Of a stretch of 64,000 nt of DNA, positions 4,750 to 50,740 are shown piece after piece. Each line of letters begins with the position of its first letter. Positions within the stretch are counted from its first letter, which is position 1. A program made the position numbers and the translations under genes. Source of the stretch: an uncultured Clostridia bacterium (GTDB lineage Bacteria > Bacillota > Clostridia > Oscillospirales > Acutalibacteraceae). The stretch covers positions 1 to 64,000 of the forward strand of contig CALYBL010000019.1 in NCBI GenBank assembly GCA_944412495.1. Direction: 5' to 3'. The notes under the pieces were generated by a model. The model was given only the letters and a program-made list of their open reading frames with translations. It was not told the DNA's origin and ran no database searches.

Positions 4750-6453
4750 TTACCGCTTTACGCTGTCACTCAGCAGGCGCTCCACCTCTGCGTCGGTTTC
4801 AAGGCTTATTGCCTTTTCGGCCAGATTGTCGGCCTCCTTTTTAGTCCACTGTGAAATGGCCTTCCGCGTTGCCAGCACGGAGGCTGCGCTGACGCTGTAT
4901 TCGTCAAGGCCAAAGGAGATAAGCAGCGGAATCATTTTCAAGTCGGCCGCCGCCTCTCCGCACATGCCGACAGGTATGCCGCCGGCGTGGCCGCATGATA
5001 TTATGTGCTTTATCGCGCGCAGTACCGCCGGATTATAAGTGGAATACAGATAGGCAGCATCGGCGTTGCCCCTGTCTACGGACATGATATACTGCGTAAG
5101 GTCGTTGGTGCCTATGCTGAAAAAGTCTGACTCCTTAGCCAAAATATCTGCGATAATGCAGGCCGCCGCCGTTTCTATCATTATACCTATCTTGATATCC
5201 TTGTTGTAGGCTATGCCCTCCTTGTCAAGCTCGGCCATGATTTCCGACACCATGGCGCGCACAGCCCTTATCTCATCGACGCAGGTGACAAACGGAACCA
5301 TAATTCTTATGTCGCCGTAGGCGCTTGCCCTCAGCAGCGCACGCAGCTGAGTCTTGTACAAATCCGTATTCTTAAGGCAGTAGCGTATGGCGCGGAAGCC
5401 AAGAAACGGGTTTTCCTCCTTCGGCATTTTGAGATATGCTATTCCCTTGTCCCCGCCAACGTCCAGCGTCCTTATTATGACCGGCTTACCCTTCATGATA
5501 AGGGCGGCCTTTTTGTACGCCTCAAACTGCTCATCCTCGTTGGGCTGGGCCGGCCTGTCCATAAAAAGGAATTCTGTTCTGAACAGGCCTATGCCCTCGC
5601 CGTCACATTCAATGGCGTTGTTGGCCTCGTCCGGCTTGCCTATATTCACAGCAAGCTCCGCCTTTATTCCGTCAGCGGTCCTTGTTTCTTTGCCTATGTA
5701 TTTTGACAGTGCCTTGCGGTATTCAATAAAATCGGCGCGCAGCCTTGTGTATTCGTCTATCTGCTTTTGCGTGGGGTTTGGTATGACAATGCCCTCGCTG
5801 CCGTCGACAATTACGGTCTCGCCGTCTGCAAGCTTTTCGGCGGCGCCCGGCACGCTGTGCACCGCCGGAATGCCCATGGCACGCGCAAGAATGGCCGAGT
5901 GCGACGTCCTGCCGCCGGTCTCCGTCACGATTCCGGCAATATTCGACTTGTTTATGCGCGCTGTCATCGACGGCGTCAGGTCCTTCGTCACAAGCACTGT
6001 GTTTTCAGGAGCATCTGAAATATCCGCTTCCTCCACACCAAGCAAAATGGAAAGTATATCGTTCTTTATGTCGTTTACATCGGCTGCTCGCTGCTGCGTA
6101 AGCTCGTCGTCGGTCGAAGAAAAAACCATGGCAAACATATCGCAAACGGAGGACAGCGCGCTTTCGGCACATTGGCCGCCCTCTATCAGCTTTTCAATCT
6201 CGCCGCTCATATACGGGTCCTTTATCATGAGGATATGCCCCTGTATTATCTCGGCTTCCTTTTCCGACGCGGCCAATTTAACCCGCTCGGCCATTTTTTC
6301 CGTCTTTATGCAGAATTTTTCAACGGCACTTCTGTAGCGCTCAAGCTCATGCTCAGCGTCACAGTCCGCTTTAGGCGTAAAATCAAGATTTGGCTCCGTC
6401 ACAAGCATGACTCTGCCTATACCATACCCCTCTGAGGTTGCAATGCCCTTCAT
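4750..6453 (-). CDS. ptsI: Phosphoenolpyruvate-protein phosphotransferase, PTS enzyme I
   Basis: Enzyme I takes phosphate from PEP and passes it to HPr, the first step of all PTS sugar uptake, in the cytoplasm. The swivelling-domain motif GGRTSHSAILAR carries the phosphorylated His. The C-terminal TIM-barrel shows GIMIETAAA, FFSIGTNDLTQY and the conserved Cys in VGMCGEAAA. I start it at MKGIATSEGYG (567 aa, usual family length) because GGGGG lies 9 nt upstream. A longer frame would start inside ptsH and translate through an intercistronic hairpin. It is the last gene of the fru operon, downstream of ptsH. Confidence 0.95.
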   Translation of the reverse strand: MKGIATSEGYGIGRVMLVTEPNLDFTPKADCDAEHELERYRSAVEKFCIKTEKMAERVKLAASEKEAEIIQGHILMIKDPYMSGEIEKLIEGGQCAESALSSVCDMFAMVFSSTDDELTQQRAADVNDIKNDILSILLGVEEADISDAPENTVLVTKDLTPSMTARINKSNIAGIVTETGGRTSHSAILARAMGIPAVHSVPGAAEKLADGETVIVDGSEGIVIPNPTQKQIDEYTRLRADFIEYRKALSKYIGKETRTADGIKAELAVNIGKPDEANNAIECDGEGIGLFRTEFLFMDRPAQPNEDEQFEAYKKAALIMKGKPVIIRTLDVGGDKGIAYLKMPKEENPFLGFRAIRYCLKNTDLYKTQLRALLRASAYGDIRIMVPFVTCVDEIRAVRAMVSEIMAELDKEGIAYNKDIKIGIMIETAAACIIADILAKESDFFSIGTNDLTQYIMSVDRGNADAAYLYSTYNPAVLRAIKHIISCGHAGGIPVGMCGEAAADLKMIPLLISFGLDEYSVSAASVLATRKAISQWTKKEADNLAEKAISLETDAEVERLLSDSVKR

Positions 6454-6477
6454 ATGTATCGGCCCCCTTATAAAGCT

Positions 6478-6502
6478 CGCCCCGAGAAAGGCTCCCGGGG
6501 CG
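6478..6502 (-). other. Intercistronic hairpin between ptsH and ptsI
   Basis: A GC-rich stem (CGCCCCGGGAG / CTCGGGGCG, one bulged G) lies between the HPr stop and the enzyme I ribosome site. It has no T-run, so it is not a terminator. It could tune the HPr to enzyme I ratio by protecting the 3' end of the upstream message or slowing ptsI translation. Confidence 0.55.
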
Positions 6503-6514
6503 AAATCGACAGTA

Positions 6515-6778
6515 TTATTCGCCAAGCCCGCTTTCTATAAGCTCAACCGCAGCATTGAGCGCCTCGTTTTCATCCTCGCCGTCGCAGACAAGCTCTATAG
6601 TGGACCCGCACTTTATACAGGCGGCGATGATGTTCATCAGGCTTTTGCCGTTTACGTCGTTGCCGTTGAACTTTATCGTTATATTGCTTTTATATTTCGC
6701 CATTGCGTTTGCGAACACCCCCGCCGGGCGCATATGAAAGCCCTGAGCGTTTGTGAGAGTGATTGTTTTTGATACCAT
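6515..6778 (-). CDS. ptsH: Phosphocarrier protein HPr
   Basis: An 87-aa HPr that relays phosphate from enzyme I to the fructose EII. The active-site His15 lies in QGFHMRPAG. Ser46, the target of HPr kinase/phosphorylase in Firmicutes, is present in GKSLMNI, so it can in principle also act in carbon catabolite repression. Gene order fruA-ptsH-ptsI with a 33-nt gap after fruA means the general PTS proteins are co-transcribed with the fructose genes. In many Firmicutes ptsHI is a separate operon. Confidence 0.95.
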   Translation of the reverse strand: MVSKTITLTNAQGFHMRPAGVFANAMAKYKSNITIKFNGNDVNGKSLMNIIAACIKCGSTIELVCDGEDENEALNAAVELIESGLGE

Positions 6779-6811
6779 GTTAAGACCCCCGTTATTAATA
6801 TTGATAAAATT

Positions 6812-8719
6812 CTACTCGTTTACCCTTTTCTTGAGAAGGGCCAGCATAACGGCTCCGACTATTGAGCCGGCCAGCAGCGACACTATGTAAAGCGGCCAGT
6901 TGCCGACCACCGCGAAGACGAATATTCCGCCGTGCGGCGCCATAAGCGTGCAATTAAACAGCATAGACAGCCCTCCGGCCACCGCTGAGCCGACAACGCA
7001 GGAGGGTATGACTCTCAGCGGGTCGGACGCGGCGTAGGGTATTGCGCCCTCGGTTATAAAGCTGAGACCCATTATGTAGTTTACCGGCGCGCTCTTTCTC
7101 TCGGCCTTTGTGAACTTTTTCTTTGCAAATGTCGCGGCAAGCGCTATCGCTATCGGCGGCACCATGCCGCCGACCATGACCGCGGCCATTATATCGTAGT
7201 TGCCGGAGGCGATAGCCGCCGTGCCAAACACATATGCGGCTTTGTTGAAGGGGCCGCCCATGTCTATTGCCATCATTCCGCCGAGTATGCAGCCGAGCAC
7301 CACTCTGCTTGAGCTTCCCATTGAGTTGAGAAGATTTGTAAGCCCTGTGTTTATCATTCCCATGAACGGGTTGACAGCACACATGATAACCGCTATAAGT
7401 CCCAGTCCGACTATCGGATAGATAAGCACCGGCTTTATGCCCTCCAGCGCCTTTGGCATCTTATCGCAGAGCTTTTCAAGGCCCAGCATGAGGTAGCCGC
7501 CGACAAAGCCGGCAAACAGCGCGCCCAAAAAGCCCGAGGGTATGTCTCCGGAGATGGCGGTGAAGGTCGCGCCGGTAGTCGCGAGGTAGCCGCCGACAAA
7601 GCCGACGAGCAGTCCGGGACGGTCGGCTATGCTCTTGCCAATGTATCCCGCCAGAATAGGAATCATGAAGTTAAATGCAACATTGCCTATCGTTTTAAAG
7701 AAAGCGGCCGCCGGAGTATTCATGCCGAAGTTTGCATCCTGCGGTGCGCCGGAGAGAGTGTCTATCAAAAACGCTATCGCAATAAATATTCCTCCGGCGA
7801 CCACAAACGGAAGCATATTTGAAACGCCGTTCATAAGGTGCTTGTAAATCTGACGGCCGAATCCATCTTTTCCGGAGCTTTCAGCCTTTGCCTTTTCACC
7901 GCTGTACCTGTATATCCCGGCGTCGCCGTCTATTATCCTCTGAATAAGTTCCTCCGGCTTCTTTATGCCGTCGGAAACCTTTGTGCTTATCAGGCGCTTG
8001 CCGTCAAACCTCGCCATGTCCACCGATTTGTCGGCCGCTATGATAATGCCGTCGGCCTTCTCTATCTCTTCTTTTGTAAGCACGTTCTTGGCGCCGCCGG
8101 AGCCGTTGGTCTCTACCTTTATGGAATAGCCAAGCTTTTCTCCTGCCTTTTCCAGCGCCTCCGCCGCCATGTATGTATGCGCTATGCCAGTGGGGCACGC
8201 CGTGACGGCAAGAATCCTGTAGCCGCTCTCGGGCTTTTCCGCTGCCTTAGGCTCGTCGGGATATTTCTCAGTCTCCTTGGCATCTATTACCGAAAGGAAT
8301 TCGTCCTTGTCCTTTGCCAAAAGCAGCCTCTGCCGGAAGCCGGCATCCATTAAAAGCGTCATGAGGCGTGATAACACCTCGAGATGAACATCGCCGTCGT
8401 TCGGCGCGGCAATCATAAACAGAAGGTTTGACGGATTGCCGTCAAGTGCGCCGTAATCCACTCCGCCGGGGACGGTTATCGCCGCAAGGCTCGGCGACTT
8501 TACCCCGTCGCTTTTTGCGTGCGGTATCGCTATCCCGTCGCCTACTGCCGTGGAGGCCGATTCCTCCCTCGCCAGTATGTCGCTTTTGTACCTTTCTGCA
8601 TCGCTTATGCAGCCGCCGTTTATTTGAAGCCCGATAAGCTTATCGATAGCCTCGTCCTTGGACGTTACAGCCGCGTTCAGCTCAATGCTCTCTCTTTTCA
8701 GCAAATCAGTAATACGCAT
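6812..8719 (-). CDS. fruA: PTS fructose transporter subunit IIABC
   Basis: A 635-aa three-domain permease that imports fructose and phosphorylates it to fructose 1-phosphate. The EIIA domain (1-150) has the phosphorylated His67 in IAIPHAKSD. The EIIB domain (about 165-265) begins with AVTACPTGIAHTYMAAEAL and Cys175. The EIIC domain (about 285-630) has eight or more membrane segments with GGIFIAIAFLIDTL near its start and GMINTGLTNLLN mid-domain. The A-B-C order in one chain is usual for Firmicute FruA. The substrate call is supported by fruK and a DeoR regulator directly upstream. Confidence 0.95.
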   Translation of the reverse strand: MRITDLLKRESIELNAAVTSKDEAIDKLIGLQINGGCISDAERYKSDILAREESASTAVGDGIAIPHAKSDGVKSPSLAAITVPGGVDYGALDGNPSNLLFMIAAPNDGDVHLEVLSRLMTLLMDAGFRQRLLLAKDKDEFLSVIDAKETEKYPDEPKAAEKPESGYRILAVTACPTGIAHTYMAAEALEKAGEKLGYSIKVETNGSGGAKNVLTKEEIEKADGIIIAADKSVDMARFDGKRLISTKVSDGIKKPEELIQRIIDGDAGIYRYSGEKAKAESSGKDGFGRQIYKHLMNGVSNMLPFVVAGGIFIAIAFLIDTLSGAPQDANFGMNTPAAAFFKTIGNVAFNFMIPILAGYIGKSIADRPGLLVGFVGGYLATTGATFTAISGDIPSGFLGALFAGFVGGYLMLGLEKLCDKMPKALEGIKPVLIYPIVGLGLIAVIMCAVNPFMGMINTGLTNLLNSMGSSSRVVLGCILGGMMAIDMGGPFNKAAYVFGTAAIASGNYDIMAAVMVGGMVPPIAIALAATFAKKKFTKAERKSAPVNYIMGLSFITEGAIPYAASDPLRVIPSCVVGSAVAGGLSMLFNCTLMAPHGGIFVFAVVGNWPLYIVSLLAGSIVGAVMLALLKKRVNE

Positions 8720-8738
8720 AACCTTACTCCCCTTCTTT

Positions 8739-9659
8739 CTAAATTTTATCAGACTGTATTATACTCAGCAGTCTGTATATTTCATCTCGTTTTGCCAAGC
8801 CCTCCGAAAAGGCGGTGGCGCTCCCTGCGGCAGTGCCAAGCTCAAGCGCATAGCGGTAATCGTGCTTTTCCATATATCCTGCGATAAATCCCGCCACCAT
8901 GGAATCGCCGGCGCCTACCGAGTTTATCACTTTCCCTTCGGGCGCTCCCATAATGTGCACATCGCCGTTTTCATCCACTAAAATTGCCCCGTCACCGGCC
9001 ATCGACACCAGCACGTTGACGGCGCCGCGGCGCTGCAGCTCTTTTGCCTTGCTGATTATCTCGTCGTTTGTCTTTAAAACGGCGCCGAACATTTCTCCCA
9101 GCTCAAGGCTGTTCGGCTTTATTAAAAACGGCTTATATTTTAAGACATTGAGCAGTAAATCTTTGGTCGCGTCGACGACAAAGCTTATGCCTCTGCCGGA
9201 AAGCCTTTCAAGTATTATTTCATATATGTCTGCCGGCAATGTGTTGGGTATGCTTCCTGCAAGTATCAGCACGTCGCCGGATTTTATCATGTCCAGCCGC
9301 TCAAACAGGCTTTCGATGGCATCTCTGCTTATCTTCGGACCCTGACCGTTGAGCTCCGTCTCCTCGCCGGCCTTTATCTTTACGTTTATGCGTGAATTGC
9401 CGCTGCTCAGATGCACAAAATCTGACTCAATGCCCATTGACTTAATGCCGTTCTCTATCGCCGTACCGGTAAAGCCGGCACAAAAGCCAAGCGCTATTGA
9501 GCTTACGTTAAGCTCCCTCAGCACAGCCGAAACGTTTATTCCCTTGCCGCCGAAGTATATTTCCTCGCTCTTTGAGCGGTTGATCTCGCCGGCCTTAAGG
9601 CTGTCAAGCTTCATGACATAATCAATGGCGGGATTAAATGTAACGGTGTAGAGCATCAT
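8739..9659 (-). CDS. fruK: 1-phosphofructokinase
   Basis: A 306-aa PfkB-family kinase that converts fructose 1-phosphate to fructose 1,6-bisphosphate for glycolysis. The N-terminal family signature GGKGINVSAVLRELN and the C-terminal signature NSVGAGDSMVAGF, with the catalytic Asp of GAGD, are both present. It begins MMLYTVTFNPAIDYVM, the usual FruK N-terminus. It overlaps the end of fruR by 4 nt and is followed 20 nt later by fruA, so the three are one transcript. A tagatose-6-phosphate kinase role is the alternative within the family but the neighbours argue for FruK. Confidence 0.94.
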   Translation of the reverse strand: MMLYTVTFNPAIDYVMKLDSLKAGEINRSKSEEIYFGGKGINVSAVLRELNVSSIALGFCAGFTGTAIENGIKSMGIESDFVHLSSGNSRINVKIKAGEETELNGQGPKISRDAIESLFERLDMIKSGDVLILAGSIPNTLPADIYEIILERLSGRGISFVVDATKDLLLNVLKYKPFLIKPNSLELGEMFGAVLKTNDEIISKAKELQRRGAVNVLVSMAGDGAILVDENGDVHIMGAPEGKVINSVGAGDSMVAGFIAGYMEKHDYRYALELGTAAGSATAFSEGLAKRDEIYRLLSIIQSDKI

Positions 9660-10405
9660 TTAACGACCTCCTTTATTACGCACTTTTCAAGAAACTGCTT
9701 ATCCGGCAGATAATCGGTGATTATCACCGACTTGTCGACACTGGCAAAGGTGACGGATGACACCTGGCTGAATTTTGAGTGGTCGGCCAAAACATATGAG
9801 ATATAGCTTCTCTCGACAGCGTATTTTTTTACCATGGCCTCCTCCGGGTCCGGCGTCGTGAAGCCGCTTGAGAGGGATATGCCGTTGGTGCCCATATAGC
9901 ACTTGGTAAAATTAAATTTTTTCAGCGACTCGGCTCCCTCAGCGCCCACTATCGCCTTTGTCGACGCCTTGAACCGCCCGCCTATCAGGTATACCCTGAG
10001 ATTTTTGCGCGCAAGCCTTTCGGCGTGCGAAATTCCGTTGGTGACAAAGGTCGCGTTCGTCTGCTTTATATATTCAATCATTTTTTCTGTCGTGGTGCCG
10101 GCGTCGATATAAATAAAATCATCCTGCCGTATGGTTTCGGCGGCGTATCTTGCAATAGCGTCCTTTTCGGCGGCAAACATTTTTTCCTTGGCTTCCACAG
10201 GGTGCTCGCTAAAATCGAAGTTATCGCTCACAACCGTGGCGCCGCCGCGCACCTTCTTTATCCTGCCCATTTCGGCAAGCGAGCTTAAGTCCCGCCTTAT
10301 CGTCGCCTCGGAAGCGCCGGTTACCTCGACGAGCTTTGCTACCGAAACGGTCTTGTGCTCGTTTACGCATTCCAATATCCTGCTATACCTTTCTTCCGTG
10401 AGCAT
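9656..10405 (-). CDS. fruR: DeoR-family fructose operon repressor
   Basis: A ~249-aa repressor with an N-terminal DeoR helix-turn-helix (TVSVAKLVEVTGASEATIRRDL, then LAEMGRIKKVRGGA) and a C-terminal sugar-phosphate sensor domain with the motif DAGTTTEKM. The inducer in this family is usually fructose 1-phosphate; that is inferred here. I prefer the ATG start to a GTG two codons earlier because AGGGTGG lies about 8 nt before it. It is the first gene of the operon and lies directly downstream of three TTGATT boxes that overlap its own start region, so it is probably autoregulated. Confidence 0.93.
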   Translation of the reverse strand: MLTEERYSRILECVNEHKTVSVAKLVEVTGASEATIRRDLSSLAEMGRIKKVRGGATVVSDNFDFSEHPVEAKEKMFAAEKDAIARYAAETIRQDDFIYIDAGTTTEKMIEYIKQTNATFVTNGISHAERLARKNLRVYLIGGRFKASTKAIVGAEGAESLKKFNFTKCYMGTNGISLSSGFTTPDPEEAMVKKYAVERSYISYVLADHSKFSQVSSVTFASVDKSVIITDYLPDKQFLEKCVIKEVVK

Positions 10406-10438
10406 ATTCACACCACCCTTGCGCTAAAATGATTTAAT

Positions 10439-40385: not shown

Positions 40386-41268
40386 TCAAACAACTCCTTA
40401 AATCAATCTTTAGAATTAACTGCCATAAAAAGGCAGCTTGGCCTGTTGCCAATATTTTTGGGACTTTATCTAAATTATATTCATCGGCTTAAAAAGTGTC
40501 AACTTTGTAACCATTATTACTTTTGTGTAATATTGATAAAGGAAAACTCCCTCAAGGTTACATAAAATATTACAAGTTTGTAATTTTTAGCCCTGAAAAT
40601 TGATTTACAAGAGTTATGGAAACCAATGGTTTGTATAATCTGCTGAATTTGAGAATGAATTGTGGAAAAAGCGGCTGTTATTCTGTATAGAACAGAACAA
40701 CGCCGCAGTATAGCTACGTTTTTATGGATTAAAATCAGTCGAATAAAACAGCTGAGAAAATTCTCGTTTATGTTGGTGAAAGTCCGCGCGCAAGTATTGA
40801 TACGCCCCTTAAAATTGCTGTCAAAATCATAAATCTGTAAATTTATGTCAATACTTAAGCTGTAAAACATGCTATAATGATATGTATAATTTCTGCATGG
40901 AAATGCCGTGTACCCATTCCTGAGTTAATCTGCCGGTGTATGCTGACTATTTTCTGCTGCTGACTATTTATTGAAAATAAAGGTGCTGAGGCGGATTTTA
41001 ATTATAGCAATTAAATTGGTTATTTATATGTATAATTATTATATCTTCGCCGCTCGTATCAATATGTATAACGCCGCAGCTAAGGCGAGCGGCAGGCGAC
41101 CGCTATTGACAAAATATGCTAACTATATTAAAATGTGGTTTGATTTATGTGGTCAGGCTTTTCCTGAATTTATGCGGCTGTATTATGTTTTGCCTTCTAA
41201 ATTTACAGGAAAAGTTATTTTTTGTAGGGAAGAAATAAAATTTTTATGTCGTGTACCGGAGGATAAAT
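40386..41268. other. Large AT-rich intergenic region before the glycan cassette
   Basis: About 880 bp between divergent genes. A plus-strand frame near 40971-41276 has no ribosome site and an odd composition and is not credible. TATAAT-like elements occur, e.g. at 40873-40878, but without a good -35. It probably contains the promoter and long leader of the polysaccharide cassette and the promoter of the G5/3D gene. Confidence 0.5.
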
Positions 41269-43338
41269 ATGGATAGAAACCATTCCGCAAATTCAGCGGA
41301 CAGCAAAGAGCTTATAAACAGTCTTGTAAACGCTGAAGATGAGGAAAATGCCGTTACTCTTGCATTCAGAGTTATAAAGCAGCTTGAGGACGAAAAGGAC
41401 CTGCTAACATCACGTCTTGAGGACAGCTATAAGGAGATAAACAGGTTAAATCACGTCGTGCTGTCTTTGAATCAGGAAATTAATCAAATAAATTATCAGC
41501 ACAGCAATTCAAATGTTTTCAAGAGAAATTGGAGCAGGATGAAGAAGCTGCTTAAAAATCTGCGCCTGAGCCGCATAAAAAAAGGCTTCAGCTATCTTAG
41601 GAGAGAGGGCTTTGCAGCGACCCTCAGAAGATACAGGGCCTCTGGCGCTACTAATCCCGATCCAAAGATAGCGTATCAGAATTGGATACTCAACCATGAG
41701 CCAAAATATGCTGATCTTCAGAATCAAAAAAGGCATAAATTTGAATATAGCCCCCTCATTTCAATCGTGGTACCGACGTATAACACAAAAAAACAGTATC
41801 TTGAAGAGATGATAGATTCTCTGAAAGCCCAAACCTATGATAATTGGGAGCTTTGCATAGCCGACGGAAACAGCGATAACCGGCTTGAGATAGAGGAGGT
41901 TATAAAAAGAAATCCCAAGATAAAATATGTGATGCTCGATGAAAACAAAAATATATCCGGCAATACAAACGAGGCTTTGAAGCTCTGTTCCGGCGAATAT
42001 ATAGGACTTCTGGATCATGACGATACGCTTGCTCCATTTTGTCTCTACGAGGTGGTAAAGACCTTAAACGAAGACAGAAGCACAGATATCATTTACAGCG
42101 ACGAGGACAAGTTTACTACTCTCAGCGGCGCGCGCTTTCAGCCGCATTTTAAGCCGGATTTCAGCCCCGACTATTTAAGGAGCATAAATTACATCACCCA
42201 TTTCTTCGTTATAAAAAAATCACTTATGGATGAACTCGGCGGATTCATAGACGAGTATAACGGCGCGCAGGACTATGACCTTATACTGCGGGCCACCGAA
42301 AAATCCGATAAAATAGTCCATATACCCAAAGTGCTTTACCATTGGCGTGTGCATGAAAATTCGACGTCAATGGATGTCGGTGCAAAGCAATATGTTATTG
42401 ATGCCGGAAAAAAGGCTATAGAAGCGCATATAAAACGCCTGGACATGCCCGGTGAAGTGACCAGTCTTGACGATAAATCTATCTACAGGGTAAGATTTGA
42501 TGTCGATGACGAAGAGAAAGTTTCTATAGTTATTCCAAACAAGGACCATATAGACGACCTTAAAAAATGTATTAATTCTATATTGACACGCTCTACCTAC
42601 AGCAATTATGAAATAGTAGTAGTGGAAAACAACAGCACGCATGCCTCTATTTTTAACTATTACAAAAAACTCGAGAAAAACAACAGAATAAAGGTCATAT
42701 ATTATGAAGGCGAGTTTAATTATTCCAGAATAAACAATTTTGCCATAGACAGCTGCAACGGAAAATATCTGCTTTTCCTGAACAATGATACCGAAGTGAT
42801 AACTCCCGAATGGCTGGAGGAAATGGTGATGTTTGCGAGGCGCGATGATGTCGGCGCCGTTGGAGCAAAGCTGCTCTATCCTAATAACACTATACAGCAT
42901 GCCGGCGTTGTAGTGGGTCTTGGCGGCGTTGCAGGACATGTTTATCCCGGTGCTCCCAGAGATGCTTCCGGATATTTCCATCGCTTAAGGCTGGTCAATG
43001 ATTATGGAGCCGTTACCGGCGCCTGCCTCATGATGAAAAAGGATGATTTTGTAAATGCCGGAGGCTTTGATGAGGAACTGGCGGTGGCTTTCAATGATAT
43101 TGACCTCTGCGTTAAGATGCTGCGTCTTGGGAAATATAACGTATATACACCGTTCTGCGAGCTGTATCATTATGAATCCAAGTCGAGAGGGCTTGACCTT
43201 GAGGGTGAAAAGAATATCCGCTTCCAGGGCGAGGTAAAAATGGCAAAAGAGAAATGGAAGGATGTACTCAGCAAAGGAGATCCTTTCTACAGCCCGAATT
43301 TGTCTCTTGATACGGGATTTTACGAAATAGGCAGATAA
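41269..43338 (+). CDS. Dual-domain GT2 glycosyltransferase with N-terminal coiled coil
   Basis: A 690-codon protein starting MDRNHSAN behind GGAGG. A coiled coil (about residues 35-85, KDLLTSRLEDSYKEINRLNH) and a basic linker precede two family 2 glycosyltransferase domains. The first begins LISIVVPTYNTKKQYLE, with GEYIGLLDHDDTL as the DxD region and a later AQDYDLILR. The second begins VSIVIPNKDHIDDL, with LLFLNNDTEVI and AFNDIDLCVKM. This layout matches rhamnan/O-antigen polymerising or chain-initiating transferases. It is the first gene of the export cassette; the coiled coil may dock other members. Confidence 0.9.
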   Translation: MDRNHSANSADSKELINSLVNAEDEENAVTLAFRVIKQLEDEKDLLTSRLEDSYKEINRLNHVVLSLNQEINQINYQHSNSNVFKRNWSRMKKLLKNLRLSRIKKGFSYLRREGFAATLRRYRASGATNPDPKIAYQNWILNHEPKYADLQNQKRHKFEYSPLISIVVPTYNTKKQYLEEMIDSLKAQTYDNWELCIADGNSDNRLEIEEVIKRNPKIKYVMLDENKNISGNTNEALKLCSGEYIGLLDHDDTLAPFCLYEVVKTLNEDRSTDIIYSDEDKFTTLSGARFQPHFKPDFSPDYLRSINYITHFFVIKKSLMDELGGFIDEYNGAQDYDLILRATEKSDKIVHIPKVLYHWRVHENSTSMDVGAKQYVIDAGKKAIEAHIKRLDMPGEVTSLDDKSIYRVRFDVDDEEKVSIVIPNKDHIDDLKKCINSILTRSTYSNYEIVVVENNSTHASIFNYYKKLEKNNRIKVIYYEGEFNYSRINNFAIDSCNGKYLLFLNNDTEVITPEWLEEMVMFARRDDVGAVGAKLLYPNNTIQHAGVVVGLGGVAGHVYPGAPRDASGYFHRLRLVNDYGAVTGACLMMKKDDFVNAGGFDEELAVAFNDIDLCVKMLRLGKYNVYTPFCELYHYESKSRGLDLEGEKNIRFQGEVKMAKEKWKDVLSKGDPFYSPNLSLDTGFYEIGR

Positions 43339-43420: not shown

Positions 43421-44401
43421 TTGAAAAAACGGAGAAATATATTTCTGTCGGTTTTCTTTATATTCCTGTCTTTTATATTGTTTTTGCCGATAAACGACCA
43501 GATTGAATCGCTGCCGGCTATAGCAAATCTGGCCATAGCCGCCGCGGGCAGTGCTGTTATAATATTTATCCTTTACAAGGCCCGTCTGCTTAACGCCGTG
43601 TTTGGGCTTGTAGAAACGATAAGCACAAATAAGCGGCTGATTCTGTCGCTTTCCAAAAACGACTTTAAGCAGAGGTTTGCCGGCTCGTATTTCGGTGTTA
43701 TATGGGCATTTATACAGCCGATAGTTACCGTTATAATGTACAGCGTGGTGTTTCAGCTGCTGCTTAATCAGGGCGCTACTGTTGATGACGGCGTGCCGTA
43801 TTCGCTGTGGCTTATCTGCGGGCTTGTGCCGTGGTTTTACTTTTCGGAGGCATGGCTCGGCACCTGCAACAGCATGCTTGAATACAGCTTCCTTGTAAAA
43901 AAGGTTGTATTCCGTATTGACATCCTGCCGCTTGTAAAGGTTATATCCTCGTTTATAGTACATGCCTTTTTTGCGGTACTCATGCTGGTAGTTGCGATGC
44001 TGTTTGGCTTTTCCCCGGACCTGTATACGTTACAGATTATTTATTATATGTTTTGTCTTGTGATGCTTATCACTATGCTGGGCATCCTTACCTCTGCCAT
44101 AACGGTGTTTTTCCGCGATTTTTCACAGCTTATAAACGTACTTATTCAGATAGGCGTATGGCTGGTGCCTATTATGTGGAATATAAACGGAGATCAGATT
44201 CCGGACAGCTTTAAATGGATATTTAAGTTTAATCCGCTGTATTATATAATAATGGGCTATCGCGACGCTATAGTTTATAAGCAGTGGTTTTGGGAAGCTC
44301 CCATGCTGACGCTTTATTTCTGGCTGTTTGTGGGGCTTTTGGGACTGTTTGCAATAAATCTGTTCAACAGACTAAGGCCGCACTTCGCCGACGTATTATA
44401 G
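43421..44401 (+). CDS. Polysaccharide ABC exporter permease (Wzm/TagG-like)
   Basis: A 326-aa membrane protein of the ABC-2 family that would carry a lipid-linked polysaccharide across the membrane. The core starts NDFKQRFAGSYFGVIWAFIQP and has six membrane segments ending in INLFNRLRPHFADVL, a standard ending for this family. Before it lies an extra ~65-residue stretch with two predicted membrane segments (FLSVFFIFLSFILFLP; LAIAAAGSAVIIFIL), not usual for Wzm or TagG. Translation starts at TTG (MKKRRNIF) with GGAGG 7 nt upstream. It pairs with the ATPase 14 nt downstream. Confidence 0.92.
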   Translation: MKKRRNIFLSVFFIFLSFILFLPINDQIESLPAIANLAIAAAGSAVIIFILYKARLLNAVFGLVETISTNKRLILSLSKNDFKQRFAGSYFGVIWAFIQPIVTVIMYSVVFQLLLNQGATVDDGVPYSLWLICGLVPWFYFSEAWLGTCNSMLEYSFLVKKVVFRIDILPLVKVISSFIVHAFFAVLMLVVAMLFGFSPDLYTLQIIYYMFCLVMLITMLGILTSAITVFFRDFSQLINVLIQIGVWLVPIMWNINGDQIPDSFKWIFKFNPLYYIIMGYRDAIVYKQWFWEAPMLTLYFWLFVGLLGLFAINLFNRLRPHFADVL

Positions 44402-44415
44402 ATTGGAATGAGCAC

Positions 44416-45687
44416 ATGCCGCAGATAATGATTGATGTTGAAAACATCTCAAAAGTTTATAAGATATATGATAAACCGGGCGACAGGCTTAAGGACGCCC
44501 TGTTTCCCTTCACCAAAAGCCGCTATCGTGAGTTTGCCGCTCTCAACGGCATCTCTTTTAAAGCCGAGAAGGGAGACGCCATAGGCTTTTTAGGCAAAAA
44601 CGGCTCCGGTAAGTCGACGCTGCTGAAGATAATCACGGGGGTGCTAAGCCCGTCCGGCGGAAGCGTTTCCGTCAGCGGAAGAGTCGCCTCCATACTCGAG
44701 CTCGGCGCCGGCTTTAATCAGGAATATACCGGCATAGAAAACATATATTTAAACGGCACGATAATGGGCTTTACCAAGGCGGAAATGGACAAAAAGCTGC
44801 AAAGCATTATCGATTTTGCCGACATCGGCGATTTTATATATCAGCCGGTCAAAATATATTCGAGCGGTATGTTTGCGAGGCTGGCTTTTGCTGTTTCAAT
44901 AAACGTTGAGCCGGACATACTGATAATAGACGAGGTCCTGGCAGTCGGCGACGCAAGATTCCAGACAAAGTGCATAAGCAAGCTCAAGCAGCTCAAGGAT
45001 ATGGGCACGACGATACTGTTTGTTTCCCACGCCTCCGAGCAGGTAAAGCGCTTCTGCAACCGTGCGATATGGATAAAAGAGGGCAAAATAGAGGCGGAGG
45101 GCCTCTCCAGCGAGATAGTTGACATATACGATTCCTGGCTGCTGTTCGGCAAGCAGACGGAGATAAAAACCGAGAGCGAGGAGCTGCCGGAGCTGCCGGC
45201 GAAAAAGGAAAAAGCGGAAAAGAAGAGGTCGGCTAAGAAAGAAACGGACGCTGACGAGGAGTTTAAGCTGCCTGAGGATAAAAGTATACTTGCGAGGATA
45301 GTCGACGTAAAAATTAATAAGACAGTGTTTCACACCTTTGACAAGCTGTCCGTTGATATAACGTACGATATATACGAAGAGGAGATAAGGGACTTTTTAC
45401 TCGGCGCGGCGATATATTCAGCCGACCACAACGACTATATCTTCGGGCCGAACACATATCTTGAGAAGACCGAGGTGCCGAAAACACGCGGCCGCCATAA
45501 GGTGCGCTACACTATACCAAGCCTCCAGCTCATAAAGGGTGCGTTCACGATAGATGCAGGCGTTTTCAACAACGAGGGCATGGTTACGATAGACTACAAA
45601 ACGGCAGCGGCAGACTTTGAGGTTACAAATGAATATTTTTCAGAAGGACTTGTATATATGAAGCATGAATGGGAAGTGATCAAATGA
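44416..45687 (+). CDS. Polysaccharide ABC exporter ATPase with C-terminal domain (Wzt-like)
   Basis: A 423-aa ATPase. Walker A is GKNGSGKST (60-68), the signature IYSSGM, and Walker B ILIIDEVLAVGD. After the ATPase domain (~245 aa) a Lys/Glu-rich linker leads to a beta-rich domain (about 290-423, ILARIVDVKINKTVFHTFDKL) like the carbohydrate-binding C-terminal domain of Wzt. In E. coli O9a and O8 that domain recognises the capped glycan end before export. I start at MPQIMIDVENIS; a frame 44 codons longer overlaps the permease gene and has no site. It couples to the methyltransferase through an ATGA overlap. Confidence 0.92.
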   Translation: MPQIMIDVENISKVYKIYDKPGDRLKDALFPFTKSRYREFAALNGISFKAEKGDAIGFLGKNGSGKSTLLKIITGVLSPSGGSVSVSGRVASILELGAGFNQEYTGIENIYLNGTIMGFTKAEMDKKLQSIIDFADIGDFIYQPVKIYSSGMFARLAFAVSINVEPDILIIDEVLAVGDARFQTKCISKLKQLKDMGTTILFVSHASEQVKRFCNRAIWIKEGKIEAEGLSSEIVDIYDSWLLFGKQTEIKTESEELPELPAKKEKAEKKRSAKKETDADEEFKLPEDKSILARIVDVKINKTVFHTFDKLSVDITYDIYEEEIRDFLLGAAIYSADHNDYIFGPNTYLEKTEVPKTRGRHKVRYTIPSLQLIKGAFTIDAGVFNNEGMVTIDYKTAAADFEVTNEYFSEGLVYMKHEWEVIK

Positions 45688-47087
45688 AAATTCCGTTTGA
45701 CCAGTACCAGCGCTACAAAAATACTCAGAAGATAATAGACTCTGTGCGCAGACCCGGCGAACGCTTCAAAATATTGGAGGTGGGTGCTAACGAGCACAGA
45801 AACCTTGAGCACTTTTTGCCGGAGGATGACATAAAATATCTTGATATAAAGCTATCCGACGAATGCTTGAACAGTCCTCAGTATATTCTTGGCGATGCGA
45901 CGGATATGCCGTTTGAGGATAATTATTTTGACATCATCGTCGCACTGGACGTATATGAGCATATTCTGCCCGACCGCAGAGAAAGCTTTCTGACAGAGAT
46001 AAACCGTGTATGCAAAAATAATTTCATAATATGCGCGCCGATGAAAAATGAGCGCATACAGCGGGCGGAGGAGCGCGTAAACGAAGTATACAAAACGATA
46101 AACAGCCAGGACTTTATATGGCTTAAGGAGCATGCAGACAATATCCTGCCGGACCTTGACTGGACCAAGACCTTTCTTGAAAAAAGCAATATAAAATTCA
46201 AGAGCTTTTGCCACGGCACGCTTGAGGTTTGGGAAATGCTCATGTCGATAACCTTTTTCTCCACGCTCTACCCCCAGACCTACTCGTACCGTGTTATGAT
46301 TGACGAGTTTTACAACGACGAGATTTTTGAAAACGATTATAATAATGAGGATTTTTACCGCGCCTTTTTTGTTGGCGAAAAGGCAAGAAGCTTTGACGCA
46401 GGCAGCGTTATAAAGTCTCAGCAGAATACGGCATGGAAATACAGGCTTAATATATTAAAGGATAACTTTTTCAACCTGCTTAACATAACCTGCTTCAGAC
46501 ACAGGGACGCAAAATATTTTGCAGAGCTGTTTTACGACACTGGAAGCGGCTTCAGCCAGGTCGACCGTCTTGAGGTCATGCTGAATATAGACGGGCATGG
46601 ATATTTCAGCATAGGAAAGAAATTCAATTTAAGCAAGATAAGCGGCATAAAGCGGCTGAGATTTGACCCGGTGAACAGCAGCTGCGTCATTGACGGCATA
46701 AGCGTAACTGCGACACGGCAGAGCGGTGAGATAGTAGACCTGCTTACAAAGGCCAAATACGGCTTTAAGACAATATCCGGCAAAACGGTGTTTATAAGCA
46801 ACGACCCGCAGATACTGCTCGACGAGGTGGATGAAGCCGATCCGATAGTCGAGGTGGATATCTCAATGAGCGGCACGGTGTATGACAATCTGCCGGACTA
46901 TCTGATAGACGCCTATGAAAGTGATATGGCTAATTTAAAAAACAAGCTCGCTAAGGAAAAAATGAAAAATATGGAGCTTAAGGCCAAGGTTACTTCACTG
47001 CAGCGCTTTGAAGACGAGGTTCGCTCGTCTGTGTTCTTTAAATTCAAGAAGGTTAAAAAAGAAAAAAAGGGGAAAAACAAAAAATAG
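45684..47087 (+). CDS. SAM-dependent methyltransferase with C-terminal coiled coil
   Basis: A 467-aa protein starting MKIPFDQYQRYK in an ATGA overlap with the ATPase gene. The class I methyltransferase fold spans ~1-210, with motif I ILEVGANEHRN, motif II YLDIKLSD and DIIVALDVYEH. A beta-rich domain (about 230-410) shows KFNLSKISGIKRLRFDP, a pattern seen in proteins of glycan-synthesis loci. A coiled coil (about 410-455, DMANLKNKLAKEKMKNMELK) and a Lys-rich tail end it. This resembles WbdD, whose methyltransferase caps a glycan and whose coiled coil sets its length, though WbdD has a kinase domain and this has none visible. The capping role is inferred. Confidence 0.85.
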   Translation: MKIPFDQYQRYKNTQKIIDSVRRPGERFKILEVGANEHRNLEHFLPEDDIKYLDIKLSDECLNSPQYILGDATDMPFEDNYFDIIVALDVYEHILPDRRESFLTEINRVCKNNFIICAPMKNERIQRAEERVNEVYKTINSQDFIWLKEHADNILPDLDWTKTFLEKSNIKFKSFCHGTLEVWEMLMSITFFSTLYPQTYSYRVMIDEFYNDEIFENDYNNEDFYRAFFVGEKARSFDAGSVIKSQQNTAWKYRLNILKDNFFNLLNITCFRHRDAKYFAELFYDTGSGFSQVDRLEVMLNIDGHGYFSIGKKFNLSKISGIKRLRFDPVNSSCVIDGISVTATRQSGEIVDLLTKAKYGFKTISGKTVFISNDPQILLDEVDEADPIVEVDISMSGTVYDNLPDYLIDAYESDMANLKNKLAKEKMKNMELKAKVTSLQRFEDEVRSSVFFKFKKVKKEKKGKNKK

Positions 47088-47100
47088 TCTGATTGATATT

Positions 47101-47130
47101 AAATGCGCTGTAATGCTTTGCAGCGCATTT
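47101..47130 (+). terminator. Terminator of the polysaccharide cassette
   Basis: A perfect 10-bp stem, AAATGCGCTG / CAGCGCATTT, lies 14 nt after the methyltransferase stop. The T-run is weak (TTTGCTGTATT). Confidence 0.7.
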
Positions 47131-47268
47131 GCTGTATTGTACTGCGGACATGTCCCACGGCAATGCATGGTTTAACCGCGCTCTGTCCGGACGGCATGCT
47201 CATATTCAACATGCCAAAATGCGGCCGGCAGAATGTTTTGCTTAGAACCGGCGCATATTAAAGATAGT

Positions 47269-47297
47269 TTTACTAAACATATAATTTATGCTATAAT
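47269..47297 (+). promoter_or_regulatory. Sigma-A promoter of the GH2 gene
   Basis: -35 TTTACT (47269-47274), 17-bp spacer, -10 TATAAT (47292-47297), about 65 bp before the start codon. Confidence 0.65.
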
Positions 47298-47362: not shown

Positions 47363-50179
47363 ATGCACAGTGTATATAATTGCCACGAGGATTGTCAGGT
47401 AATAAGCAAAAACACGTTGGAACCGAGGTCATACTATATTCCGTACGGGTCGTATCTTGATGCCGTGGAGAAGCCGAAGGAAAAGTCCGACCGGCTTATA
47501 AGTCTTGCGGGAGACTGGCATTACAAGATGTATGGGGACATACGCGACGTACCGGAAATATCCCCCGAAACGGAGAAAAGGATATGCGGAAAAAGCGTTT
47601 TGACACTGCCATGCAATATTGAAACGGCAAAGCTGGATATCCCTCGCGCTAACAGCGCCTACCCGTTCCCGTGCGATATACCCTATACCGCTCCTGTCAA
47701 TCCGGCGGCGGTGTTTTGCCGCGACTTTTATATAAGCGAGCAGTTTGACGGCTATAAGAAATATTTTGTCTGCGAGGGCAGCTCACCGTTTTATCTTTTT
47801 GTGAACGGCCGCTTTGCAGGCTATGCTCAGGGACACAGCAGGATGAGCGAGTTCGACATCGGAGACATGCTGACTCCAGGAACAAACAGCATTTGCATAG
47901 TAACCGTCAAATACGCCGACTCGGCATATCTGGAGTGCTATAAGACGATTGATCTATGGGGCGTGTTCGGCGACATATACATACTTGCGCGCCCAAAGGG
48001 GCACATAATCGATTATAAAATAACGTCAAGGCTGACCGACTCAATGCGCGGCGCCAATCTTTGCGTAAATGTAAAGTCAGTGCTTTCCGACGGCATAAGC
48101 GTGACGGTGATAGACCCCAACGGTGAGGCGGTGGAATCGCGCCCGGCAAGTGATGAAGGAACAGCGGAATTTTATATAGAGACGCCGTATATATGGAGTG
48201 CGGAAAGTCCCGATTTATATACTGTTGTGATAAGCCAGGGCGGTGAGTATATAGCCGCAAAGACGGGCATAAGGGAAATAGCGCTTGAAAGCGGCGTGCT
48301 CAGGATAAACAACCGCAGCGTTAAGCTTAAGGGAGTTGTCTTTAACCCAATCAGTCCCGTAAGGGGATATGCCTTGACAGTCGGGGGAATGCACGGCAGT
48401 CTTGTCAGCATGAAAAAGAACAACATTAACGCTGTAAAATTTAATCAGCCGCCGCTGCCGGCAATGCTGCAGCTGTGCGACAGCATAGGCATGTATGTGA
48501 TTGACGACACGGGCATAAACTGTTCCTTTATGCCGGAGGGAATGGATGCATCTGAAATTTCCGTGCTGCGCGCTTCCTATGCTGACCGTACGGCGTGCAT
48601 GTATGAGCGTGACAAGAACAGCGCAAGCGTGATTGCTTGGTCGCTTGGACACCAGGCCGGACACGGGGACAATATAAAGGCGTGCTTTGATTATTTAAAG
48701 GAAAACGACGGCCGGCCCGTCATGTATGACGGTGAGGAATATGATATTTCAGCGTTATACGGCAATCATGATGAAAATATCCGCAAAACAAAGCCGGCAC
48801 TGCTCTGTTCCTTTACGCACAGCGCAAAGCAAGTGTGGGACAGGGTTATATCAGATGACGGCTTAGCCGGCGCGTTCTTTGATGAATGGTGCGAGGCAGG
48901 CGTAAAGGTCACATCAAATGGCAAGAATATTTACTATACAAGAGAGTCACTCTGCGGCAAAAGCAGCGTATATTCGGACAAATCCGCTCTCATATCGTGT
49001 AAAGGCGTTGAGCTTCCTATGCTCAAAGAGCTCAAAAACGTCTATGCGCCGGTGCGTGTGGAGCCGCTCGATTTGTCCTGCGGCAGATTTAAAATATATA
49101 ATCTTTATGATTTTGTATATCTGTCGCGGCTGGAGCTTTTTTACGAAATATCCTGCGACGGAAGGATACTGGAGAGTAAAAGCGCCGGTACGCTGACAAT
49201 ACCTCCGCAGAAATCGCAGGAGATAGAATTAGGCTATTTTTTGCCTGACGGCGGCGATTGCTATGTACGGTGCACCTTCCGCCAAGCGGGTGAATGCGCA
49301 TGGGCACCCGACGGACATGAGACCGCCTTTATGCAGTTCAGGCTTCCCTGTGAAGAGGTGCGGCCGGTACAGATGGTTGAATATGCTGTTTTAAACCGCA
49401 AGGATTCCGGAAAGTATGTTAACTTTACTTCAAGCGGATTTGAATATGGATTCAGCAAATACACCGGACTGCTCAGCAGGATAAATATAAATTCTAAAAG
49501 CTTTACAAGTTCTCCGGTGTATTTGGCGGCAAAAACCGCATCAGGTATTGAGGCAAGAACACGGCTTTATCATTATGACTGTGATTTAGCGGATAACAGC
49601 GCAAAAATAAAGGCCCTGCTCTCTCTTTGCGCCGACGGCTTTGTCCCGTTTGCGGAGGTGGAGGCGGAATATCTGATAAGCGGGGCCGGGGACATTGACA
49701 TTTACTTCAGGGTGTCGCCGCAGGAATCCGGGGACAAAATAGCTTCGTTAGGGCTTTATATTCCCGTCGGGACGGAGTTTTCAAACTCCGAATATTTCGC
49801 ATACGGCCCCGGAATAAGCACGGCTGACATGACGGCAGGCTCAGAATTCGGCAGGTTTGTGACAAACGCGTCAAAAATGACGCAGGAAAGCGTGATATGC
49901 GGAATGCCTCCTGTGAGATACGGCGCCAAATGGGCCGGCGTATATGACGAAGGCAGAAGCGGCATGCTGTTATGCGGCGACTTTATCTTCGGGCTGTTAA
50001 AGGAAGAAGGCAGAAATATCATTTATGCCGGCTGTAAAAATATCAGCAAAGAAGCTGTGCTGAAAAACGAGTCTGAATTCCGCATACTGCTGCGGCCGAT
50101 TCATCCGGACGGACGCAGTCTGAGCGAGATATCGGCCACGGTGTATAAAATGTACGGCGGATATCAGGTAAGTCTTTGA
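47363..50179 (+). CDS. LacZ-type GH2 protein lacking both catalytic glutamates
   Basis: A full-length 938-aa cytoplasmic protein with the complete LacZ layout: sugar-binding domain (YLFVNGRFAGYAQGHSRMSEFDI; SAYLE; GVFGDIYILARP), immunoglobulin-like domain, TIM barrel (about 310-560), second Ig domain, and C-terminal beta-sandwich. The barrel matches LacZ throughout but key sites are changed: WSLGHQAGHG instead of WSLGNESGHG, so the acid/base Glu is Gln431, and LCSFTHS instead of LCEYAHA, so the nucleophile is Ser483. NRHEHHP and SHYP are also lost. There is no frameshift or stop. It cannot be a normal beta-galactosidase. Binding, sensing or a scaffold role is inference. It follows the glycan cassette under its own promoter. 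Confidence 0.88.
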   Translation: MHSVYNCHEDCQVISKNTLEPRSYYIPYGSYLDAVEKPKEKSDRLISLAGDWHYKMYGDIRDVPEISPETEKRICGKSVLTLPCNIETAKLDIPRANSAYPFPCDIPYTAPVNPAAVFCRDFYISEQFDGYKKYFVCEGSSPFYLFVNGRFAGYAQGHSRMSEFDIGDMLTPGTNSICIVTVKYADSAYLECYKTIDLWGVFGDIYILARPKGHIIDYKITSRLTDSMRGANLCVNVKSVLSDGISVTVIDPNGEAVESRPASDEGTAEFYIETPYIWSAESPDLYTVVISQGGEYIAAKTGIREIALESGVLRINNRSVKLKGVVFNPISPVRGYALTVGGMHGSLVSMKKNNINAVKFNQPPLPAMLQLCDSIGMYVIDDTGINCSFMPEGMDASEISVLRASYADRTACMYERDKNSASVIAWSLGHQAGHGDNIKACFDYLKENDGRPVMYDGEEYDISALYGNHDENIRKTKPALLCSFTHSAKQVWDRVISDDGLAGAFFDEWCEAGVKVTSNGKNIYYTRESLCGKSSVYSDKSALISCKGVELPMLKELKNVYAPVRVEPLDLSCGRFKIYNLYDFVYLSRLELFYEISCDGRILESKSAGTLTIPPQKSQEIELGYFLPDGGDCYVRCTFRQAGECAWAPDGHETAFMQFRLPCEEVRPVQMVEYAVLNRKDSGKYVNFTSSGFEYGFSKYTGLLSRININSKSFTSSPVYLAAKTASGIEARTRLYHYDCDLADNSAKIKALLSLCADGFVPFAEVEAEYLISGAGDIDIYFRVSPQESGDKIASLGLYIPVGTEFSNSEYFAYGPGISTADMTAGSEFGRFVTNASKMTQESVICGMPPVRYGAKWAGVYDEGRSGMLLCGDFIFGLLKEEGRNIIYAGCKNISKEAVLKNESEFRILLRPIHPDGRSLSEISATVYKMYGGYQVSL

Positions 50180-50197: not shown

Positions 50198-50740
50198 TTG
50201 AATATATGGCATGACATGAGCCCTGAGAAGATTACGGCAGATTCATTCTACGCCGTTATTGAGATTGAAAAGGGCGGCAAGAACAAATACGAGCTTGATA
50301 AGGACACGGGTATGCTCAGGCTTGACAGGGTGCTTTATACCTCGACGCACTACCCGGCAAATTACGGTTTTATTCCGCGCACATGGGCGGAGGACAATGA
50401 CCCGCTCGATGTACTGGTGCTGTGCTCCGAGAGCATACTGCCAATGACGCTGGTAAGCTGCAAGCCGATAGGCGTCATAAAAATGAACGATCAGGGCGAG
50501 CTTGACGAAAAGATAATCGCTGTGTGCGTCAGCGACCCGTTTTACAACGGATATGAGGATATATCCCAGCTTCCGGCGCACATAGACAACGAAATGCGGC
50601 ACTTTTTTGAAGTTTATAAAACGCTGGAAAATAAGGATACAACCGTGCAGGTCATAGAGGGCAAGGAGCAGGCCAAGGAGGTCATAAATCACGCCATAAA
50701 TGCATATACAAAGCTTTTTGTCGGCGGCAGGGGAATTTAA
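50198..50740 (+). CDS. ppa: Inorganic pyrophosphatase, family I
   Basis: A 180-aa soluble enzyme that hydrolyses PPi to 2 Pi. The signature NKYELDKDTGMLRLDRVL is followed by the Mg-binding core EDNDPLDVLVL with its Asp residues, and GVIKMNDQGELDEKIIAV. Length and motifs are typical. It begins with TTG (MNIWHDMSP) behind GAGGTG and lies 18 bp after the GH2 gene on the same strand, so it may be co-transcribed. PPi turnover matters here because PPDK also uses PPi. Confidence 0.95.
   Translation: MNIWHDMSPEKITADSFYAVIEIEKGGKNKYELDKDTGMLRLDRVLYTSTHYPANYGFIPRTWAEDNDPLDVLVLCSESILPMTLVSCKPIGVIKMNDQGELDEKIIAVCVSDPFYNGYEDISQLPAHIDNEMRHFFEVYKTLENKDTTVQVIEGKEQAKEVINHAINAYTKLFVGGRGI

Follow-up and report, generated by a model that had tools for sequence, protein, structure and literature searches.

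What keeps a β-galactosidase fold in a genome once its active site has gone? This question is raised by a LacZ-like gene in the first 64,000 nucleotides of contig CALYBL010000019.1 (assembly GCA_944412495.1) of an uncultured Clostridia bacterium from the family Acutalibacteraceae, a stretch referred to below as the window. According to the reading that we tentatively favour, at chances just short of even, the product of this gene (P0001) is a LacZ-fold pseudoenzyme that may have been retained as a scaffold or adaptor with no catalytic role, engaging a partner protein through its domains 2 and 4.

Predicted Fold and Active-Site Residues

47363..50179, + strand: coding sequence of P0001 (938 aa), a LacZ-fold protein lacking the catalytic residues (open reading frame, Pfam, alignment, predicted structure)

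The open reading frame (ORF) starts with ATG and contains no internal stops. Pfam analysis revealed five matches, all above the cut-off (PF02837, PF00703, PF02836, PF16353 and PF02929), which agrees with the initial annotation of this DNA, made from the letters alone, where five LacZ domains were recognised with no stop or frameshift in 938 codons. The TIM-barrel match ends at residue 459, upstream of the nucleophile strand. Structure prediction, which that annotation had proposed along with sequence clustering, yielded a confident model with the whole LacZ fold intact and the LacZ chain covered up to residue 913. Thus, based on Pfam and the predicted model, the five-domain LacZ fold is present in P0001. 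The best match to the NCBIfam β-galactosidase equivalog reached 350 bits, below the cut-off of 1284. The protein is probably located in the cytoplasm.

Residues were mapped to E. coli LacZ (P0123, from NC_000913), in which we take Glu461 to be the acid/base, Glu537 the nucleophile, and Glu416 and His418 the Mg ligands, along with the other active-site numbers used here. In this alignment, Glu461 corresponds to Gln431 and Glu537 to Ser483, the same replacements that had been read from the sequence initially. The Mg-site residues Glu416 and His418 are not kept either (Asn386, Ser388), and substitutions are also found at Asp201 (Lys194), His357 (Asn328), Arg388 (Lys359), His391 (Gln362), Asn460 (His430), Met502 (Leu465), Trp568 (Asp507), Phe601 (Leu530) and Asn604 (Lys533). 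The claim that every active-site motif had been lost therefore holds for most residues, but not for Tyr503 (Tyr466) and His540 (His486), which are retained.

A search of 5.8 billion proteins, in which scoring covered the best 7,996 candidates ranked by shared words, revealed three full-length metagenomic relatives, P0002 (70% identity), P0004 (67%) and P0005 (49%), and one fragment identical to P0001; a profile search, likewise scored over 7,996 candidates, added no further members. The four full-length proteins share 47–75% identity, differ pairwise at 233–487 residues, and form one branch (SH-aLRT, the Shimodaira–Hasegawa-like approximate likelihood ratio test, 100), the stem of which is long, at 1.56 changes per site (median end branch, 0.35). 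Both catalytic Glu are absent in all four, so that clustering places the substitutions in a clade rather than in the unique, fast-decaying copy that the initial annotation had named as the contrary outcome. Chance or an error in a single genome is excluded by the three additional full-length proteins, which come from other sources. The replacements in this clade, hereafter the window clade, are as follows (all from the alignment):

48344..48346, + strand: Asn328 at LacZ His357; Asn in 4/4 clade members
48446..48448, + strand: Gln362 at LacZ His391; Gln in 4/4 clade members
48518..48526, + strand: Asn386 at LacZ Mg ligand Glu416 (N,D,D,N in the clade) and Ser388 at Mg ligand His418 (Ser in 4/4 clade members)
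48650..48655, + strand: His430-Gln431 at LacZ Asn460-Glu461 (acid/base); clade residues, H,R,Y,Q and Q,N,N,N
48809..48811, + strand: Ser483 at LacZ nucleophile Glu537; Ser in 4/4 clade members
48881..48883, + strand: Asp507 at LacZ Trp568; clade residues, D,N,N,D, changing in concert with residue 386 (N,D,D,N)

Asp201 is gone in two of the four members, the positions of Tyr466 and His486 read Y,Y,Y,S and H,H,Y,C, and all four show a gap where the C-terminal stretch of E. coli LacZ with Trp999 aligns. Residues 386 and 507, Asn and Asp in P0001, are swapped to Asp and Asn in P0002 and P0004; this single joint switch on the tree suggests that the two residues may be in contact within the former active site.

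Both Glu, as well as His357, His391, Glu416, His418 and Trp568, are kept in 103/103 non-clade rows of the 107-row alignment, and the 22 remaining listed homologues outside the alignment and the clade also keep both Glu. As all 125 of these 125 other homologues retain the pair, its loss in P0001 exceeds chance. A scan of genome contigs for orthologues in named genomes gave relatives 21–34% identical to P0001 (best 80 of 161 relatives), and the LacZ-like ORFs in these 80 GTDB loci have both Glu in 80 out of 81 cases, L070 being truncated before the nucleophile. Apart from the window genome, an E-value of 1e-156 was reached by 0/393 genomes of the order and 0/390 of the class (draws that overlap the family set), and one scan of viral contigs gave no relatives of P0001. 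P0001 is presumably inactive, and the window clade would represent LacZ-fold pseudoenzymes, homologous to the active family, that have lost the catalytic residues clade-wide and kept the predicted fold.

Conservation across Domains

Classical analysis of nonsynonymous to synonymous substitution (dN/dS) met saturated synonymous sites across the whole gene in 8/10 pairs of relatives. For comparison of domains, each clade pair was matched with intact LacZ pairs whose overall identity lay within 0.04 of its own; the compared pairs share sequences, and the tests are thus not independent.

48002..48277, + strand: domain 2, residues 214–305; conservation in the clade exceeding that of almost all matched intact LacZ pairs (alignment, pair comparison)
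49073..49348, + strand: domain 4, residues 571–662; conservation in the clade above every matched intact LacZ pair (alignment, pair comparison)

The domains of the clade pairs differ strongly in identity. It amounts to 0.50–0.85 in domain 2 and to 0.58–0.85 in domain 4, where every matched intact pair is exceeded in all six comparisons, whereas the TIM barrel is less conserved than in matched intact pairs. At the 15 positions of the active-site shell, clade identity is 0.40–0.73, against averages of 0.98–1.00 in matched intact pairs, and falls below the overall identity of the pair in five of the six cases. A scan in 30-residue segments showed excess conservation at 211–300 and 571–660, as well as at 1–60 and 121–150, and a deficit at 421–570, plus 781–810 and 901–930 in domain 5. 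With domains 2 and 4 more conserved and the active site less so, the pattern points to a pseudoenzyme that may act via these two domains. The initial suggestion of selection for a non-catalytic function gains from this uneven constraint.

The alr-Linked LacZ Lineage

In total, 149 loci were read, namely 109 (L002–L110) and 40 from a family search (L179–L218); 80 of them are the GTDB loci and 69 are family loci, the latter being the best 69 of about 150 by similarity to P0001 and not a random sample. The nearest genome relatives of P0001 (30–37% identity) lie within a LacZ lineage linked to the alanine racemase gene alr, which is found directly upstream on the same strand in 24/69 family loci (22 with both Glu) and in 0/80 GTDB loci, 79 of which had at least 400 bases upstream. 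We know of no reason for this pairing.

L002, L003, L006–L019, L021–L023, L184, L205, L214–L216: alr-linked LacZ loci, with a gap of about 0 to 220 bases between the alr and LacZ matches

Among intact, tree-placed loci of the lineage with upstream sequence, alr is present in 18/18; at L004, the sequence reaches back only some 50 bases. The window clade is grouped with P0006–P0009, P0012–P0014, P0016 and P0020 at SH-aLRT 83, and two further trees left the deep order unresolved. Both Glu are kept in 65/69 family loci, the exceptions being:

L005, near ymdB: E416N, H418G, N460S, E537A, H540R; Glu461 retained
L015, between alr and dnaJ/dnaK/grpE/hrcA: H391D, E416N, H418S, E461N, Y503N, H540P, W568Y; Glu537 retained
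L020, between plsX-rnc and a uroporphyrinogen decarboxylase-like gene: H357R, H391G, E416D, H418A, N460S, E461R, H540N, W568S; Glu537 retained
L214, between alr and a 399-aa ORF, followed by a U32 peptidase: both Glu lost, about 100 TIM-barrel residues missing

Three of the four (L005, L015, L020) have thus lost just one catalytic Glu. In the tree, L015 falls among P0012–P0014/P0016 and L020 among L021–L023, which implies at least two losses separate from that of the window clade. The placement of L005 is less sure, and L214 joins the window clade at 99/98 on a very long branch. Within one genus, the proportion of nonsynonymous differences (pN) in the TIM barrel is 0.38–0.39 between the dead L015 and the intact L205, L215 and L216, against 0.25 between the intact L205 and L215/L216; domains 1, 2, 4 and 5 of L015 differ less from its intact congeners than the TIM barrel does, with synonymous sites near saturation. 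At L214 (L219:8486-11110, − strand), the 874-aa LacZ-like protein starts at the end of alr and overlaps the 399-aa ORF, which has no Pfam match.

Intact alr-linked pairs at 40–45% overall identity surpass other LacZ pairs in domain 4 (0.46 vs. 0.29) and domain 2 (0.37 vs. 0.32), the rows for this comparison having been picked by the tree and the alr finding. This conservation pattern of the lineage would place a role of domains 2 and 4 before the catalytic loss. According to the proposed mechanism, the alr-linked lineage may already have carried a second, non-catalytic role in these domains; because of it, the protein could be retained after the active site had been given up, and in the window clade only the domain 2/4 role would remain. 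The partner might be a cell-envelope precursor or glycan-export component, a guess made from the neighbouring genes. Rather doubtful is the wider scenario, in which the family LacZ lineage was born behind alr with a protein-binding job in domains 2 and 4, repeatedly discarded its active site, and gave rise in the window clade to a pure cell-envelope scaffold.

Several observations weigh against a scaffold acting through domains 2 and 4. No alr match is found in the 64-kb window, where the LacZ-like gene is not alr-adjacent, and of the five dead genes, including that of the window, alr is kept at L015 and L214 and absent beside the other three. Catalytic loss does not account for all of the domain 4 excess, part of which characterises the alr-linked lineage as a whole; with this lineage as the sole reference, the clade excess in domains 2 and 4 is smaller, although it mostly stays. 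In the three P0005 comparisons, the domain 4 value is reached by 7/209, 2/210 and 3/215 lineage pairs and the domain 2 value by 22, 1 and 5, and the other three comparisons have 1–6 reference pairs. The TIM barrel of the P0001–P0005 pair is not clearly low (315/399 matched pairs at or above), and clade-specific residues per site are no denser in domains 2 (0.11) and 4 (0.09) than in domain 1 (0.12) or the N-terminus (0.21). The domain shift could also reflect fold stability without any partner. As the clade members were found as predicted proteins, their lack of stops is partly a selection effect. Finally, a P0001-like gene is absent from the whole genome of the sister species G001 (94% complete), and the clade is rarely seen (four members and one fragment identical to P0001 among the 7,996 best candidates scored), so the gene is dispensable in places.

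According to the strongest alternative, P0001 is a relic, that is, a once-active LacZ under relaxed selection and on its way to being lost, where the residue losses are decay and no new role exists. The absence from the sister species, the long stem and faster TIM barrel, the partial losses in L005, L015 and L020, the missing barrel residues of L214, and a protein database in which full-length members are partly a selected sample all fit with it. Decay sits poorly, however, with four members at 47–75% identity, with a complete and confidently predicted fold, with four replacing residues identical in 4/4 members, and with unequal constraint, under which domains 2 and 4 are more conserved than in almost every matched intact pair. 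We consider a relic unlikely, yet deserving of serious attention.

Genomic Neighbourhood

The LacZ-like gene lies downstream of a glycan-export-type cluster:

41251..43338, + strand: protein with two GT2 glycosyltransferase domains (Pfam)
43421..44401, + strand: ABC-2 permease, Wzm-type (Pfam, NCBIfam)
44284..45687, + strand: Wzt-type ABC exporter ATPase with a Wzt_C domain (Pfam, NCBIfam)
45669..47087, + strand: methyltransferase P0122, predicted β-sandwich and long C-terminal helix (Pfam, structure prediction)
47100..47131, + strand: 14-pair hairpin between the methyltransferase and LacZ-like genes, with no clean T run after it
47269..47297, + strand: promoter-like site TTTACT-17-TATAAT, TG before the −10 element, 10/12 (a match to the consensus only; 38 such sites in the region vs. 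29.3 expected)
50198..50740, + strand: inorganic pyrophosphatase, starting 18 bases downstream of the LacZ-like gene (sole match in this genome)

Given the 18-base gap and the shared strand, the LacZ-like and pyrophosphatase genes are probably co-transcribed. This pairing is not supported as a conserved unit, since no LacZ-like gene occurs in the flanks (≤1.5 kb) of the pyrophosphatase at 29 other loci. In the sister species, the LacZ-like gene and a close pyrophosphatase are both absent, with one weak pyrophosphatase match (E-value, 2.9e-4).

Evidence for a link of the LacZ-like gene to glycan export, near which the initial annotation had tentatively placed a structural role, is mixed. In its favour, the records of methyltransferase P0136, a homologue of P0122, and of LacZ-like P0005 have a single member each and give an 18,593-base contig of the same source, so that, by this indirect argument, both probably lie on one contig. 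On the other hand, the sister species G001 retains 5.0 kb of the glycosyltransferase-Wzm-Wzt-methyltransferase cluster at 81% DNA identity without the LacZ-like gene, which in the window has its own promoter-like site. Also against the link are the hairpin that sets this gene apart from the cluster and the pyrophosphatase gene 18 bases behind it. Methyltransferase P0135 is on a 105,571-base contig, a size matched by no listed LacZ-like protein, and no listed methyltransferase is on a contig equal in size to those of P0002 (10,668) and P0004 (33,638). None of the glycosyltransferase, Wzm, Wzt and methyltransferase genes of the window was found in the L015, L020 and L005 regions, nor the glycosyltransferase and Wzt at L214.

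At the place of the LacZ-like gene, G001 has a convergent 158-aa ORF, possibly membrane-anchored, before the contig end (L149, G001:C111, 88-564). On the two sides of the U32 gene of G001 (L158) lie ORFs named from their translations as galactokinase, MscL and haemolysin-III-like. The methyltransferase of the window (45669-47087), with its predicted β-sandwich and 58-residue C-terminal helix beside the Wzt_C exporter, recalls WbdD-type chain-capping proteins. The architecture is suggestive, but assignment as a WbdD-like capping methyltransferase was rejected: the 50 Foldseek rows listed are other S-adenosylmethionine-dependent methyltransferases, WbdD not among them, and a PDB sequence search gave five weak matches, all to other proteins. 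Elsewhere in the window (4750-10411, − strand), phosphotransferase system enzyme I, EIIABC, a PfkB kinase and a DeoR regulator form a sugar phosphotransferase operon, its fructose type being a guess.

The export cluster also bears on whether P0001 might be a lectin or sensor, with an old pocket in which the exported glycan or a galactoside is still bound but left uncleaved. The gene adjoins the cluster, P0136 and P0005 likely share a contig, and positions 328, 362, 388 and 483 are Asn, Gln, Ser and Ser in 4/4 members; moreover, lactose is bound in a structure of the E. coli LacZ variant E537Q (1jyn, according to the entry title), so loss of the nucleophile alone does not stop binding. However, His357, His391, Trp568, Glu416 and His418 are lost as well, as is Asp201 in 2/4 members, and the sister species has the cluster without the LacZ-like gene. 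The 15 shell positions, at 0.40–0.73 identity and below overall identity in 5/6 pairs, are among the least conserved of the clade, which speaks against the galactoside binding suggested initially. A sugar-binding role of the old pocket is thus distinctly improbable.

Far less credible still is hidden catalysis, that is, sugar hydrolysis or transfer by other residues, for which Tyr466 and His486, both kept in P0001, and Asp507, aligned with a pocket residue, would be the candidates. In one source (PMC12243196), the nucleophile Glu is described as invariant across subfamilies of glycoside hydrolase family 2 (GH2). P0001 has lost its Mg site along with the acid/base and the nucleophile, and the candidate positions, which read Y,Y,Y,S, H,H,Y,C and D,N,N,D, are not conserved among the clade members. 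LacZ works as oligomers, and an inactive subunit could regulate an active paralogue by mixed assembly, an idea that can practically be dismissed, since the single GH2 TIM-barrel match in the whole genome is this gene. The scaffold or adaptor acting through domains 2 and 4 remains the account that we tentatively prefer.

Comparison with Known Systems

No report of a GH2 pseudoenzyme or of an alr-lacZ pair was found in the literature searched, which consisted of partial listings and few subscription papers. Genome annotation would label such genes as β-galactosidases and thereby assign lactose use. The best-studied glycosidase fold appears to outlast its chemistry in several branches of one family, which offers a testable case for the functions of a large oligomeric enzyme beyond catalysis, with the alr-lacZ pair as an unexplained partner to start from.

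The fold of P0001 is shared with LacZ-type β-galactosidases of GH2, such as those of E. coli and Paenibacillus barengoltzii (9m0e), whereas its acid/base, nucleophile, Mg-site and galactose-contact residues are replaced. The alr-linked LacZ lineage of the same bacterial family resembles it as the source of its nearest genome relatives and in the raised conservation of domain 4; in that lineage, however, 22/24 loci keep both Glu and 24/24 lie behind alr, and the window gene has neither feature. Klotho, the chitinase-like CHI3L1 and heparanase 2 are glycosidase pseudoenzymes with non-catalytic roles. P0001 would be like them in keeping a glycosidase fold, having lost catalysis and serving a non-catalytic role, but they are animal proteins from other glycoside hydrolase families, whereas P0001 is a bacterial GH2 protein that is probably cytoplasmic.
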